A model generated the notes under the pieces. The model did not search any database. It was not told where the DNA came from and was given only the letters and a program-made list of their open reading frames with translations. From contig NZ_JACHIP010000002.1 in the NCBI RefSeq assembly GCF_014203275.1, positions 744,001 through 808,000 of the forward strand: a stretch of 64,000 nucleotides of DNA, read 5' to 3'. This stretch comes from Granulicella aggregans. Its GTDB lineage: Bacteria; Acidobacteriota; Terriglobia; Terriglobales; Acidobacteriaceae. This document shows, one piece after another, positions 56,479 to 64,000 of the stretch (its first letter is position 1; each line of letters opens with the position of its first letter). The translations under genes and the position numbers were made by a program.

Positions 56479-58035
56479 TTACTTACAGGCGACGTTCTCT
56501 GCTGAAGGAAATTCCACGAATGTGATGCTTGCTGGCGGCAGCGCCAGCTTGCCCTTTGCAACCGGGAGACCTTTGAACTCCGGGATGTCGCCGTTGGAGG
56601 CGACCATCAGCTCTTTGCCGTTTAGATCCACGGTGTGTCCCATCAGGTCTTTGGCTGTCAGCATGTAGCGCACTCCGCCGACAGGCAGGTTCAGAGTGCC
56701 TGCCTCGTCTCGGCTCAGGTTCGACGCCAGCAGGGTTACGCCGCCGGGCGTGTCCTTCATGCAATGCGCGTAGAGGTGAATCGTATTGGTGCTGCCCGGA
56801 CCAGCGCTTAGAACGGTCGTGCCCATTGTGCGATGCCAGAGCAATGCAGCCCAATAGTCCGGTCTGGGCAGCAGGGTCTTCTCGTCGATCAGCCCATAGT
56901 CGCTGGCCGCAAGCGTGTTGTGCATGATGGTCTGGACATGCAGCTTGGCCAGCTGGCCCATCTGGTCGACATAACGGAAGCTGTCGAGAAAGGTGGAAGC
57001 CCATCGGTCGCCCCCACAGGCCGCCTGCCCGGTTTCGGTGAGCCACATCGCCTTGCCTGGAGCGTATTCGTCGCGGAGCTTCGCATAAAACTGCTCTACC
57101 GTTCCTGTTCGCGAGAGCCAGTCTGCAGTGAGCGCCGCCTCCGGAGTGGTGCCGACCTTGCCACCGCCCATCGGGCCGGCACAGCGCTCCGAGATCGTAC
57201 CGTAGAAGTGATAGGAGAAGGCGTCGACCGGGTTCGATCCCATGGCTGACAGCAGTTCCTTTGAGGGCAGAAGCTTTACCGGGACGAAGTCGATTCCCTC
57301 GCCTACCGATCCTGGCCCGAGAAGGACGGTCTTCGGCGCGGCGTCGCGAAAGAACGGCTGGAAGACCGCGAAGTCCTTGCCGTACGCTGCCGCGTCATAT
57401 CCCTTGGGAACGCCCGCTGCGGACGCGAAAGTTGGTTCATTCATGAACTCCGCCGCTGCGATCTCGCCGCCGATGGAGTGGGTGTAGTCGAGGAACTTCT
57501 TCGCTTCGACCGGAGTCCAGACGCCGTCCTTGTCGCGCGTCCCCACGCTCGTAGCAAAGGAGGTCACCAGTTCTGCGTCGACGCTCTTCGCAAAGTCAAC
57601 GACGCGCTTCCACTCCGCGCGGGTGAGCACTCCATTGAATCCTTCCGGCGGAGCTGCGGCCACGGTCGCATCGGTGTCCTGAAAGTAGAGCGTATTCGCC
57701 CAGGTGCCGGAGACGCGCATGTACGCCGGGCCCAGCGATGTTGCCAGCTTGCGCAGTCGCGTGTCTTCGAGGTTGATTGGCGTTCGCTGCTCGAAGAGGT
57801 TTGGATCGATCCCGCCGGGTGTGCCTGCCCCGGTCGGCGGTGCAACCGTTCCCTTGCTTGCGTAGGGCTTCCAGAAGCGCCCGCCGATCACCTCGACCAT
57901 CTCCACGTTGTAGGACTGGAAGCGTGGACCGACGGTGCCGAGCTTTGGCAACGTCTGCGGGTTTAGTTGCGGGGTGTGCTGCGCTTCGAGCGAAAGGCTC
58001 AATCCGGCGAGAACAAATGCAAGGGCGATTTTCAT
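56479..58035 (-). CDS. exported GH79-like glycosidase (heparanase/beta-glucuronidase family)
   Basis: 518 residues from ATG 58035. Signal peptide MKIALAFVLAGLSLSLEAQ. A (beta/alpha)8 region with the acid/base in AAEFMNEPTF (Glu about 200) and the nucleophile in MWLTETGQAACGG (Glu about 334), followed by YGLIDEKTLLPRPDYWAALLWHRTMG and a beta-sandwich, is the pattern of GH79. It should cleave glucuronic-acid-containing polysaccharides outside the cytoplasm. No carbohydrate operon surrounds it. Confidence 0.78.
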   Translation of the reverse strand: MKIALAFVLAGLSLSLEAQHTPQLNPQTLPKLGTVGPRFQSYNVEMVEVIGGRFWKPYASKGTVAPPTGAGTPGGIDPNLFEQRTPINLEDTRLRKLATSLGPAYMRVSGTWANTLYFQDTDATVAAAPPEGFNGVLTRAEWKRVVDFAKSVDAELVTSFATSVGTRDKDGVWTPVEAKKFLDYTHSIGGEIAAAEFMNEPTFASAAGVPKGYDAAAYGKDFAVFQPFFRDAAPKTVLLGPGSVGEGIDFVPVKLLPSKELLSAMGSNPVDAFSYHFYGTISERCAGPMGGGKVGTTPEAALTADWLSRTGTVEQFYAKLRDEYAPGKAMWLTETGQAACGGDRWASTFLDSFRYVDQMGQLAKLHVQTIMHNTLAASDYGLIDEKTLLPRPDYWAALLWHRTMGTTVLSAGPGSTNTIHLYAHCMKDTPGGVTLLASNLSRDEAGTLNLPVGGVRYMLTAKDLMGHTVDLNGKELMVASNGDIPEFKGLPVAKGKLALPPASITFVEFPSAENVACK

Positions 58036-58125
58036 GGCGGCCAACTCTACCATGATAGGTGGAAATTGGTCGAACCACTTTGTGAGGGATCTGCGATCCC
58101 GAATGCGTCGCTTGATCGTAGGGAG

Positions 58126-60349: not shown

Positions 60350-60604
60350 GGACCTTCCGACTCGCTGCGAGCCGTGATAAAAGCCTGGAGCAGCGCACCT
60401 GTGGTGAAACATTGATTATACGACGACGGCGTGGGGAAGCCAGGGCGCGAGGGATTGCGAAGATTGTCCGCACAGATGCTTCGCCAGGAAGCAGCAAACG
60501 GCTAGACGAACAAAGACTCTTATGGTCTTATATATCAAAGACTAAACAAGTCCGAGTTGAACGGCTAATGTATCAAATGCCGCCGATGATCGAGGTATCC
60601 GCAG

Positions 60605-61480
60605 GTGAAAGTCCGCACGTCCGTTCTGTTTGTACCGCTTCTACTCGTGCTTCTATGGCTGCGTCCGATGGCCTTGAATGCCCAGGAACCTCCGTACTTC
60701 GTTACTTACTCGCATGTGCTGGAGGAGCCTGGGAATCTGGAGGTTGCGAGTCAGAATATCGGGGCTTCGCCTAAGAATGCCAGTGCCTTTTATGGGCAGA
60801 CGATCGAGCTGGAGTACGGCGTGACCGCCTGGTACACGGCCGAGGTGTACTTCCAGGGGCAGACGACGTTGAACGATTCGACCATCTTTACCGGATGGCG
60901 GCTGGAGAACCGGTTCCGGCCCCTTCGCAGCGAGCACTGGATCAACCCCGTGATCTACGTCGAGTACGAGGACATCAGCCACGCGGACAAGAGCTTCCTT
61001 GAGATCACGGGGCGCCATGTGATCTCGGACCAGGCGATTGCGAATGGGCTGCTGCGTAGTGACGTGGAACGGTCGGTGGAAGGCAAGCTGATCCTGTCGA
61101 GCAACTTCAAGGGGTTCAATGTCTCGGAGAACTTTATCGCCGAGAAGAATGTTTCGAACGAGCCGTGGGAGTTCGGATATGCAATTGGCGGGAGCCACGC
61201 GCTGGCATCACATGCGAGCGCTTCGAACTGCCAGTTCTGCCGGCAGTATTTTGCGGTGGGCGGGGAGCTGTTTGGCGGGCTCGGGACGAGGTACGACTTC
61301 GGGTTCGACAGCACATCGATTTATGCGGGGCCGACGGTTGCGTATAACTCGCCGCGTAACTACACGATTACGGCTGGGCCGGAGTTTGGGCTGAACGCGA
61401 ACAGCGCTGCAGTGCTCTGGCGGCTGAAGGCTTCTTACGAGTTTCCGCAGGTTCGCGACCTGTTCCGGAGGTCACGATGA
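60605..61480 (+). CDS. outer-membrane beta-barrel-like protein of unknown function
   Basis: 291 residues from GTG 60605 (GAGG upstream). A signal peptide ends at NAQEPP. The mature part has alternating hydrophobic strands (YGQTIELEYGVTAWYTAEVYFQGQT, INPVIYVEYEDIS, NYTITAGPEFGLNANSAAVLWRLKASYEF), as in outer-membrane barrels. One exposed CQFC pair (SNCQFCRQYF) lacks the histidine of a heme site. It ends overlapping the cytochrome gene by 4 bp, so the two are made together. It may form a porin-like conduit for the heme proteins; this is inference. Confidence 0.65.
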   Translation: MKVRTSVLFVPLLLVLLWLRPMALNAQEPPYFVTYSHVLEEPGNLEVASQNIGASPKNASAFYGQTIELEYGVTAWYTAEVYFQGQTTLNDSTIFTGWRLENRFRPLRSEHWINPVIYVEYEDISHADKSFLEITGRHVISDQAIANGLLRSDVERSVEGKLILSSNFKGFNVSENFIAEKNVSNEPWEFGYAIGGSHALASHASASNCQFCRQYFAVGGELFGGLGTRYDFGFDSTSIYAGPTVAYNSPRNYTITAGPEFGLNANSAAVLWRLKASYEFPQVRDLFRRSR

Positions 61481-61908
61481 AGCGAGTTTCAGGAGTAGCA
61501 GCGGTGATGTTGGGAGCCTGCGTGCTGATGGGCGCGGCGGATGGAAGTTGGTTGAAGCGGGTTCCAGCAGGCGACAAGGCGAAGGTAAATCCGCTGGCCG
61601 GCCAGAAAGAGGCGGCCGAGGCGGGAGAACACCTGTACGAAGAAGCCTGCTCGCGATGCCATGGGAAGCAGGCTGAAGGCAAGGGAAACCGGCCGACTCT
61701 GATCAGCGAGCGGATGAAGACGACAACGGACGGCGAGTTGGCCTGGCTGCTGCGGAATGGAAACTCCTGGAAGGGGATGCCTTCGTGGAGCGTGATGCCG
61801 GACGGCGAGCGGTGGCAGCTAGTTGCGTACATGCGGAGCATCAATACGCCGGCTACGGCTGCTGGGATCGCAGTTGAGGCGAGGAAATCTGACGGAGCAG
61901 GACAGTGA
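61477..61908 (+). CDS. monoheme cytochrome c
   Basis: 143 residues, ATG 61477 overlapping the previous stop. Signal peptide MKRVSGVAAVMLGACVLMGAADG. One heme-binding CSRCH (C58, C61, H62); the axial methionine is probably in GMPSWSVM. It is a class I periplasmic cytochrome of the cytochrome-cbb3/diheme-cytochrome-associated type. It likely shuttles electrons between the barrel/peroxidase neighbours and the respiratory chain. The next gene starts inside its stop codon (GTGA). Confidence 0.9.
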   Translation: MKRVSGVAAVMLGACVLMGAADGSWLKRVPAGDKAKVNPLAGQKEAAEAGEHLYEEACSRCHGKQAEGKGNRPTLISERMKTTTDGELAWLLRNGNSWKGMPSWSVMPDGERWQLVAYMRSINTPATAAGIAVEARKSDGAGQ

Positions 61909-63632
61909 AGCACCCGCAGGCAAAGTACAAGGAAGTGAAGACGATTCGGCGCAGGGTTGGACGGATAATGCTGGCGATGAGCGGGCTGACGATGCTCTCG
62001 TGTGCGGTCCTTATTGGATGCGGTTCGGGGACGGCGCCTAACCTGGGCGGCGAGGCGGACGAGGGAGTAACGCCTGCGGCCGATCCGATTGGCGAGCGGC
62101 TATTTCTGGATACGCGGTTCTCGGAGTACTTTGCGACGCACATGACGAGCGTAAACGCTCCGCTGACGACGGGTGACCCGGTGGTGGCGACTGTGCAGAC
62201 GGCGGACGGGCCGCTGCCCGGGCCGTTTGCGGGACAGGCGATCAACTGCCGAAGCTGCCACTTTGTGACGGAGTTCGAGGGCGTGGCCAATGCGGGGAAT
62301 CGGACGTATGCGGACTTTACGACGCGGAGCCCGCTGCCGATCTCGCAGAGCGGATTCGATACGACGCCACGGAATTCGATGCAGATGGTGGGGACATTTG
62401 CGCCTCACAGCGGGCCGCAATTTCTACACTTCGATGGCGAGTTCGCGACGGGCAACGACCTGGTGGTGGGGACGATTACGGGGCGGAACTTTGGATGGAA
62501 GCCAACTGAATATCAGGCGGCGGTGGCGCATATCGCGCGGATCATCCGCGAGGATAATGGCTCGGACCAGCTTGCGGCTGATCGGAGCGATGGGCTTTCT
62601 TACGGCACTTTGTTCAAGGGGACGGACCCGAAGATTACTTCGGACATTCTGCTGCCGGCTTCGCAACGGATCGATGTGACGACGGCGACCGACATCCAGA
62701 TCGTGAACGAGGTTGCGCTTTGCATCGCGCAGTACTTCGAGGACCTGCAGTTCAAGACGGACAACGTCGGGCGGTACGATACTTCTCCGTACGACTTATT
62801 CCTGAATGCGAACCATCTGCCCCTGGCTCCCTTGGTGGGAGAGACGGACCTGGCGTACAGCCAGAGACTGTACCTGCAGGTCGTCGCTCTGACGAATCCG
62901 AAGTACATCACTCCTGCGGATGGGACGTACGCGTATCACTCGTTCGATTTCAAGTTTGGCGCGCTGGAATTACAGGGGTTGAAGATCTTCCTGAAGGCAG
63001 CGGCGTCCGGGAGCGGGACGGACCAACATGCGGGGAACTGTGCGGCATGCCATACGCCACCGAACTTCTCGGACTTCGTCTTCCACAATACGGGTGTCTC
63101 GCAGGAGGAGTACGACGGGGTTCACGGGTCGGGTGCGTTCGCGGCGCTGCATGTTCCGGGGTTCGCGGAGAGAAATGCGGCTTACGACCAGTACCTGCCG
63201 GCGAATCCTGCGCATCCGAACGCGACCGAGGCTCTGCGGCGGCCTGCTGGATCGAATGCGAACTATGCGGACCTTGGGCTCTGGAACATCTATTTAAACG
63301 ACGACTATCCGAACCCGCAGGCGAACCTGAAGTCCGTTGTGTGCGTGACGGGGACGGACTGTTCGGTCGATTCGGAACTGGCTTTGACGATCGCCCAGTT
63401 CAAGACTCCGTTGCTGCGGGATCTCGTTGACTCTGCACCGTACCAGCACAACGGCAGCGCTGCGAAGTTCGACGATGTGGTGAACCACTACATTCGCGTT
63501 TCGGCGCTGGCGAAGGCGGGTGGGTTGAGGAATGCTCCGGCTCAGTTCGCGAATATGTCGCTGTCGGCGGATGATTTGCAGGCGTTGGTGGCGTTCTTAA
63601 CGTCGATCACGGAGGACTACGACGACGCGTAG
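61905..63632 (+). CDS. diheme cytochrome-c-peroxidase-like lipoprotein
   Basis: 575 residues from GTG 61905, overlapping the cytochrome c stop. The N-terminus has a lipobox (VLIGC, Cys39) after a hydrophobic stretch, so it should be a lipid-anchored protein. Two heme motifs: CRSCH (115-119) and CAACH (379-383). The C-terminus has FKTPLLRDLVDSAPYQHNGSAAKFDDVVNHYI, the MauG/CcpA domain ending. It is longer than standard diheme peroxidases (about 330-350) because of about 150 extra residues between the hemes. It could reduce H2O2 or carry out another oxidation with the coupled cytochrome. Confidence 0.85.
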   Translation: MKHPQAKYKEVKTIRRRVGRIMLAMSGLTMLSCAVLIGCGSGTAPNLGGEADEGVTPAADPIGERLFLDTRFSEYFATHMTSVNAPLTTGDPVVATVQTADGPLPGPFAGQAINCRSCHFVTEFEGVANAGNRTYADFTTRSPLPISQSGFDTTPRNSMQMVGTFAPHSGPQFLHFDGEFATGNDLVVGTITGRNFGWKPTEYQAAVAHIARIIREDNGSDQLAADRSDGLSYGTLFKGTDPKITSDILLPASQRIDVTTATDIQIVNEVALCIAQYFEDLQFKTDNVGRYDTSPYDLFLNANHLPLAPLVGETDLAYSQRLYLQVVALTNPKYITPADGTYAYHSFDFKFGALELQGLKIFLKAAASGSGTDQHAGNCAACHTPPNFSDFVFHNTGVSQEEYDGVHGSGAFAALHVPGFAERNAAYDQYLPANPAHPNATEALRRPAGSNANYADLGLWNIYLNDDYPNPQANLKSVVCVTGTDCSVDSELALTIAQFKTPLLRDLVDSAPYQHNGSAAKFDDVVNHYIRVSALAKAGGLRNAPAQFANMSLSADDLQALVAFLTSITEDYDDA

Positions 63633-63658
63633 GGTAGTGGCCTGGCTTTGAGTCTGGG

Positions 63659-63764
63659 GTTGAAAGGCTCGGGCGGTATGGGCTGTGCTTGCGATCTCGG
63701 GGTCCTTCGACTGCGTCCCTCGCGATGAAGCTGCAAGGGACTTCGCTCGGGATGACGGAGTTTG
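63659..63764 (+). repeat. 3'-end repeat unit, copy B
   Basis: Contains the same 19-mer CGGGGTCCTTCGACTGCGT (63698-63716) and flank (AAAGGCTCGGGCGG) as 48027-48122, ending CTCGGGATGACGG. GTCCCT and AGGGAC inside can pair. It follows the peroxidase-like gene, as copy A follows mntH. Confidence 0.6.
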
Positions 63765-63775
63765 GGTGGGGATAA

Positions 63776-63809
63776 GAACGGCCCGGATCTTTTCAGATCC
63801 GGGCCGTTC
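63776..63809. terminator. strong bidirectional terminator
   Basis: GAACGGCCCGGATCT (63776-63790) and AGATCCGGGCCGTTC (63795-63809) are perfect 15-bp arms with loop TTTC, between the heme operon and the convergent Ig-like gene. A short T run follows on each strand. Confidence 0.8.
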
Positions 63810-63825
63810 GCTTTTGGTGCGATGG

Positions 63826-64000
63826 TTAGCGGGTGATGGTCAGGGTGAGGGTGGCGGTGGCGGTCTTACCGCCTCCGGTTGCCGTGATCGTGATCGGGAA
63901 GGTGGTGCGGGTCGCGGTAGACTTCGCTGTAACCAGCATCGAAACACTTCCTGATCCCGGAGCAGCGATTGGGTTCGGAGAGAAAGAGACAGTGACGCCC
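63826..64000 (-). CDS. C-terminal end of an Ig-like/beta-sandwich repeat protein (5' part outside window)
   Basis: On the minus strand the frame runs from the window edge to TAA at 63826 and reads GVTVSFSPNPIAAPGSGSVS, then MLVTAKSTATRTTFPITITATGGGKTATATLTLTITR. This is the end of a bacterial Ig-like or NPCBM-type beta-sandwich repeat as found at the C-terminus of exported acidobacterial proteins (proteases, glycosidases, adhesins). The catalytic or other upstream domains are outside the window, so the protein cannot be named. Confidence 0.65.
   Translation of the reverse strand, partial: GVTVSFSPNPIAAPGSGSVSMLVTAKSTATRTTFPITITATGGGKTATATLTLTITR

Follow-up and report, generated by a model that had tools for sequence, protein, structure and literature searches.

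Genes for a putative outer-membrane barrel and a cytochrome c overlap, and share iron-type operators with an FTR1 permease, in Granulicella aggregans and relatives

Introduction

What purpose does a small envelope operon serve when it joins a protein of no recognized family to two heme proteins? We address this question for three genes of Granulicella aggregans (Acidobacteriota; genome size 7.3 Mb) that lie in a stretch of 64,000 nucleotides of contig NZ_JACHIP010000002.1 (positions 744,001 to 808,000), which we call the window. The genes overlap at their stop and start codons and encode a putative outer-membrane barrel protein, a monoheme cytochrome c, and a diheme protein related to MauG (Table 1). 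A sequence-only reading that preceded our computational analysis had seen in them a coupled envelope redox unit, suggestive of an electron route or extracellular oxidation system rather than simple peroxide detoxification. That reading was right about the coupled unit; the control region, which indicates what the unit is for, lay outside the part it had considered. Because the control site upstream of the trio is of a kind also found at an iron importer gene, we read the operon, with slightly better than even confidence, as an envelope module for iron acquisition that is induced by iron starvation. It is probably part of the iron supply, and not a general electron-export system.

In the portions of the literature drawn on here, models of Fet uptake call for a transporter in the outer membrane, “as yet unidentified” (PMC10783030), and in vitro work recently assigned the oxidation of ferrous iron in Ftr systems to FtrB, a cupredoxin (PMC11966278). 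The gene pair encoding the barrel and the cytochrome is a concrete candidate for both the outer-membrane iron step and the ferrous oxidase role. Searches limited to open-licence papers brought up no description of it as an iron-uptake unit.

Results

A search for barrel homologues that took in remote ones found them in 18 of 61 relatives and, across the phylum, in 21 of 396 genomes. We distinguish a close set of 27 genomes (at least 42% identity in 14 aligned rows, the remainder recognized by profile or tblastn) from a remote set of 16 barrels (at most 30% identity, or a profile match below 170 bits); G and L numbers denote genomes and loci. Every close barrel gene has a monoheme cytochrome gene 3' of it on the same strand (27/27), and the overlap is exactly four bases in 24 of these genomes. 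The diheme gene lies 3' of the cytochrome in eight, seven of them with a four-base overlap, and was not found after the cytochrome at the other 19 pair loci. The co-occurrence of all three families that had been proposed as a check therefore holds for barrel and cytochrome and breaks down for the diheme gene. Judged from this distribution, the three genes are no obligate trio, and the barrel–cytochrome pair is the older unit. An unlinked barrel gene in relatives would have told against the sequence-only reading; among close homologues the linkage is complete, and it supports the view of a conserved envelope unit over that of a lone peroxide defence. The pair occurs in several families of the phylum.

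Since the overlaps are kept at exactly four bases in most relatives, they are not products of chance. In the window, the ORF coordinates and the sequence bear out the ATGA and GTGA overlaps described earlier. They suggest translational coupling, but the fixed product ratio once deduced from them is an overstatement.

Remote barrels differ from close ones in two respects. The close family has a CxxC motif in 25 of 27 barrels, the exceptions being G162 and G160 of the window's own genus; none of the 16 remote barrels has one, several of these being fragments and L053 being partly read out of frame. A same-strand monoheme cytochrome adjoins two of the 16, preceding the barrel in L048 and following it after 43 bases in L055, and in L099 a small ORF with a CxxCH stands 550 bases away. 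Around the other remote barrels, a search out to 1.5 kb, or to the contig end where that came sooner, found no cytochrome. Because L048 and L055 have a cytochrome, its link to the barrel may predate the close family, of which the CxxC would then be the mark. These cytochromes widen the pairing and leave the operator evidence untouched. Both ORFs (L048:5766-6448 and L055:638-1168) were missed by tblastn with the window's cytochrome. By eye, CopC-like and heavy-metal ATPase ORFs lie beside the remote barrel of L094, and a CusA-like ORF beside that of L097.

The control region is where the purpose of the operon begins to show. Upstream of the window's barrel gene stand two palindromes of the form GACY-N5-RGTC, GACTCTTATGGTC and GACTAAACAAGTC, in tandem and 25 bases apart; a scan of the window for such a tandem gave this one match, against none in 100 shuffles. 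At 22 barrel loci, the upstream regions contain 21 GAC-N7-GTC sites, compared with an expectation of 1.3. Among 27 barrel loci (L046 represents G160, whose barrel is split over two contigs), 13 have GACY-N5-RGTC upstream, five others a Fur-type box with at most two mismatches, and nine neither; the Fur-type consensus was written after some upstream regions had been viewed, so that zero-mismatch matches are partly circular. Within the nine, a GAC site precedes the Fur-family gene adjacent to L082, and TTGCAA-type repeats are visible by eye upstream of the barrels of L038, L090, and L092; with those at the FTR1 gene of G202 (L203), these repeats are possibly a third operator type. The GAC motif resembles what we take to be the IscR type 1 consensus, and L040 has two mismatches to what we take to be the classical 19-base Fur pattern. 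A single site of the looser motif form means little in the G. aggregans genome, because by our estimate about 450 would be expected by chance in such a genome. What gives the operator evidence its weight is the tandem arrangement of the sites together with the comparison across genomes, and on that footing iron control of the operon is, for a study confined to sequences, well supported and very likely.

A motif search in eight relatives, similar to one made with a stricter form in the G. aggregans genome, led to an FTR1 gene (L118, in G162), a Fur-family gene (L119), a TonB receptor (L126), and the barrel pairs of L122, L125, and L127, as well as to L115, L116, L117, L120, L121, L123, and L124, where there is no obvious iron gene. 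In G. aggregans itself, whose trio and FTR1 gene are on different contigs, the motif GACCAAAGTAGTC is found 100 bases before the FTR1 start. The GACY-N5-RGTC motif occurs upstream of FTR1 in 19 of 22 regions, this genome included, against 0.28 expected, although 18 of the 22 come from one genus and are not independent. Perfect Fur-type boxes mark the remaining three (G055, G010, and G050), and the region of G012 has both operator types.

Of the 13 genomes that could be classified, 12 have one and the same operator type at pair and permease (in G142, at a receptor–permease cluster). It is of the GAC type at both in G000, G151, G162, G160, G527, G163 (of the window's genus), and, through the linked cluster, G142; it is of the Fur type at both in G055, G050, G266, G504, and G205, the permease of the last with three mismatches. 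G010 is discordant. The count leaves out G202, where TTGCAA-like repeats are seen by eye at both genes, G185 and G233, which have no recognized operator at pair or permease, and the permease of G184.

An FTR1 protein scores above the cut-off in 17 of the 25 pair carriers searched, G. aggregans among them. There it is fused to FtrD, and MacB-like ABC genes follow. In the pair carriers G504 and G266, and also in G540 and G397, the FTR1 protein has an N-terminal CxxCH domain of its own, a fusion found in four of the eight FTR1 regions fetched for this test. The fused genes are at L178, L179, L180, and L182, the first three behind Fur-type boxes with 0, 3, and 0 mismatches.

Iron-related genes also adjoin the pair directly in some relatives. 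In G142 (L010:2717-7470), the trio is followed 3' by a site, GACTAAAATAGTC, a TonB-dependent receptor, a small ORF, a CbiX-like protein, and an FTR1-family permease (3.7e-15); such a neighbourhood of pair or trio with a permease was seen in this genome only. In G200, the cytochrome gene and an NRAMP ORF overlap at the stop of the former. The CbiX-like protein of G142 has a signal-like N-terminus and is possibly a periplasmic chelatase or dechelatase. In G017 (L200:2205-9904), a TonB-receptor gene behind the same motif precedes ORFs that by eye are bacteriophytochrome-like and heme oxygenase-like.

Which protein might read the GAC sites? The G. aggregans genome has two Rrf2 genes, one of them with three cysteines. 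Its product exceeds the cut-off of TIGR00738 (106.6 bits against 73.3) and stays below those for IscR (59.5 of 207.55) and RirA (72.3 of 193). Of 18 loci of this three-cysteine type, 12 have the strict motif in the promoter of the Rrf2 gene itself, as against none of four loci of other Rrf2 paralogues, in a count that was grouped by eye and from which 10 of 32 loci were dropped as no start was recognized. In Rhodobacter sphaeroides, according to the part of the account considered here, iron genes are held in repression by an Rrf2 protein that acts on a palindrome located at or near -35/-10 (PMC4618611). Owing to this precedent and to the motif in its own promoter, the Rrf2 protein is the leading candidate regulator, and a Fur-family protein is the alternative candidate. 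The two cases would be alike in an Rrf2 protein that controls iron genes through a palindrome, a motif that the Rrf2 gene itself has here; they differ in phylum and in the subthreshold IscR and RirA scores.

The first protein of the operon begins with a signal-like segment (residues 1-26) and does contain the CxxC without heme histidine that had been noted (C209 and C212; residues 209-212, 61229-61240). It has no significant Pfam or NCBIfam family match and no PDB relative in a profile search. AlphaFold2 gave a mean pLDDT of 36.7 from a four-row alignment, and a count of amphipathic strands was made with a test that also failed to separate a TonB-receptor barrel from its shuffles. Trp272 is present in 7 of 8 trio barrels versus 1 of 19 others; residues that set trio proteins apart from pair-only ones in this way are weak leads to possible targets of the diheme enzyme, confounded by kinship.

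The cytochrome, which matches Pfam Cytochrome_CBB3 at 1.6e-15, is of the His/Met type, with a single CxxCH (CSRCH, 61648-61662) and a GMPSW motif that holds the putative axial Met101 (61777-61779). Known conduits rely either on many hemes or on a fused porin. A barrel-type protein and a cytochrome whose genes seem coupled in translation, as in 24 of 27 genomes, would suit an extracellular electron route in which the two pass electrons across the outer membrane, to or from external acceptors, in the manner of porin–cytochrome complexes or Cyc2. The operon differs from the Mtr/Pio/Mto conduits in that its cytochrome has a single CxxCH and its diheme protein two, with no multiheme cytochrome, and from Cyc2 in that the heme domain is not fused to the porin, separate genes being present in 27 of 27 genomes; in place of either arrangement it has a small protein of 291 residues and a monoheme cytochrome of 143. 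The first protein matches no conduit family in Pfam or NCBIfam, and the operators are of an iron type common with the permease. The electron route favoured earlier is thus unlikely.

The diheme protein has two CxxCH motifs, C115-H119 (62247-62261) and C379-H383 (63039-63053), and a lipobox-like LIGC with Cys39 at 62019-62021. By alignment, its heme motifs stand 264 residues apart (C115 to C379) versus 170 in MauG (C31 to C201), which reduces the roughly 150 extra residues first described to about 95. Profile matches in alignment A5, confined to the C-terminal part, point to BthA (2.3e-6) and MauG (1.3e-4), whereas the score against MbnH (TIGR04039) is 43.5 bits, below the curated cut-off of 362.85. 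The Pfam scan gave no match to CCP_MauG (PF03150) in this protein, and none was found in the genome. Tyr529 (63489-63491) aligns with MauG Tyr294, a heme ligand, and this MauG/BthA-type tyrosine is conserved in eight of nine alignment rows, those that reach the region, the row of L013 being cut. Both heme motifs and the profile matches are consistent with the diheme peroxidase/MauG superfamily, and the tyrosine with its MauG-like members. AlphaFold2, again from four rows, gave a mean pLDDT of 34.8. Two diheme relatives outside the trio (L012:9250-11298 and L013:1-1369) have an insert that contains a hydrophobic, arginine-rich stretch directly before the second heme motif.

Where this protein adjoins the cytochrome, the cytochrome could feed a diheme peroxidase and the first protein be only a porin, in a peroxide defence under iron limitation. 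The Fur-family protein beside the pair of L119 would allow this, as its scores against Fur and PerR models are about the same, none of them reaching the cut-off. The lack of a recognizable diheme gene at 19 of 27 pair loci speaks against such a defence, as does the MauG-type tyrosine of the C-terminal domain, a position at which bacterial cytochrome c peroxidases are known to use methionine. We consider it improbable.

Discussion

Several observations, besides the kinship of the FTR1 regions and the discordance in G010, weigh against iron acquisition as the role of the operon. The barrel fold of the first protein and its place in the outer membrane are putative and unproven. Neither operator type was recognized at nine of 27 pairs, neither window site fits the stricter motif form, and this form has 14 matches in the G. 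aggregans genome versus 6 for a control pattern, with no iron regulon that stands out by eye. A search for FTR1 found none in seven of the 25 pair carriers (G017, G200, G013, G083, G019, G553, and G436, the last counted as a miss because it is absent from the match list), in G157 its match is below the cut-off, and many members of the genus have FTR1 without the pair. NRAMP proteins can carry manganese, the one beside L043 included, and the remote barrels of L094 and L097 adjoin, by eye, copper-type genes. These last two points would also agree with a module that serves copper or manganese in place of iron, and MbnP/MbnH-type pairs are linked to copper homeostasis in the portions of PMC3621798 used here. 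Such a module fits poorly with the Fur-type boxes and the operator common with the FTR1 iron permease; moreover, the copper-linked relatives lack the CxxC, and no cytochrome was found near them. There is, in our view, little to recommend copper or manganese over iron.

If the operon does serve iron acquisition, its parts may act as follows. With plentiful iron, an Rrf2/IscR-like iron-sulfur regulator, or Fur in other lineages, would repress it together with the FTR1-type permease. Under iron scarcity, the small protein of the outer membrane would offer iron a passage across that membrane or a docking site at it, and the periplasmic cytochrome, made by coupled translation, would exchange electrons with the incoming iron. 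Most probably it would take them up from Fe(II), ahead of the transfer of the iron to an inner-membrane importer. The direction of this flow is a guess from the His/Met type and the FTR1 fusions, and we put it forward tentatively. The MauG-like lipoprotein might serve to re-oxidize the cytochrome with peroxide or to oxidize a barrel residue, the latter modelled on what is suspected of MauG-like partners in copper homeostasis.

A broader and rather speculative idea is that the pair represents TonB-independent iron entry, in which iron enters by a small iron-specific barrel and is oxidized by the coupled periplasmic cytochrome for FTR1, NRAMP, or another importer, and to which some lineages add a MauG-like enzyme that oxidatively modifies the barrel. 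If true, this module would fill the outer-membrane step that is missing in models of FTR1-type uptake and would be the iron counterpart of the copper-related MopE/SACCP pair. The GACY-N5-RGTC motif, for its part, would give this bacterial family a sequence-based mark of iron control.

FTR1-type uptake (FtrABCD, FetMP-FetABCDEF, EfeUOB) has a parallel in the organism's own FTR1-FtrD fusion behind the trio's motif. Among the components described in the portions of the literature used here, there is no barrel and no c-type cytochrome, and conversely the P19/FetP/FtrA partner family (PF10634) had no match in any of the 25 pair carriers, in a search whose control matched only in Haloferax volcanii. 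MopE/SACCP and MbnP/MbnH, in the same excerpts of PMC3621798, combine a MauG-like diheme protein with a surface or partner protein and are linked to metals. The trio resembles them in pairing a MauG-like diheme protein with a putative surface partner, but its partner is a putative barrel plus a cytochrome, and its diheme protein falls far short of the MbnH cut-off. With porin–cytochrome complexes and Cyc2 it has in common the combination of a barrel-type protein with a cytochrome.

Other features of the locus

A divergent GreA-like gene lies upstream of the three genes. The hairpin that follows them was the single one found in its scan, against a shuffle mean of 2.5, so that the scan by itself does not speak for a function, and a sigma-70 scan of 60400-64000 found no promoter.

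Table 1. Coordinates of the operon and its flanking elements in the window
Feature	Position	Strand	Basis
Putative small outer-membrane barrel protein, 291 aa	60605..61480	+	ORF, signal-like segment, CxxC
Monoheme cytochrome c, 143 aa	61477..61908	+	Cytochrome_CBB3 match; start within barrel stop (ATGA)
Diheme MauG/BthA/MbnH-like protein, 575 aa	61905..63632	+	Start within cytochrome stop (GTGA)
Tandem GACY-N5-RGTC palindromes, putative Rrf2/IscR-type operator	60515..60552	+	Motif scan against shuffles; comparison across loci
Terminator-like hairpin, 15-pair stem	63776..63809	+	144 bases past last operon gene

Elsewhere in the window, the minus strand encodes at 56479-58053 a protein that matches the N-terminal domain of glycosyl hydrolase family 79.

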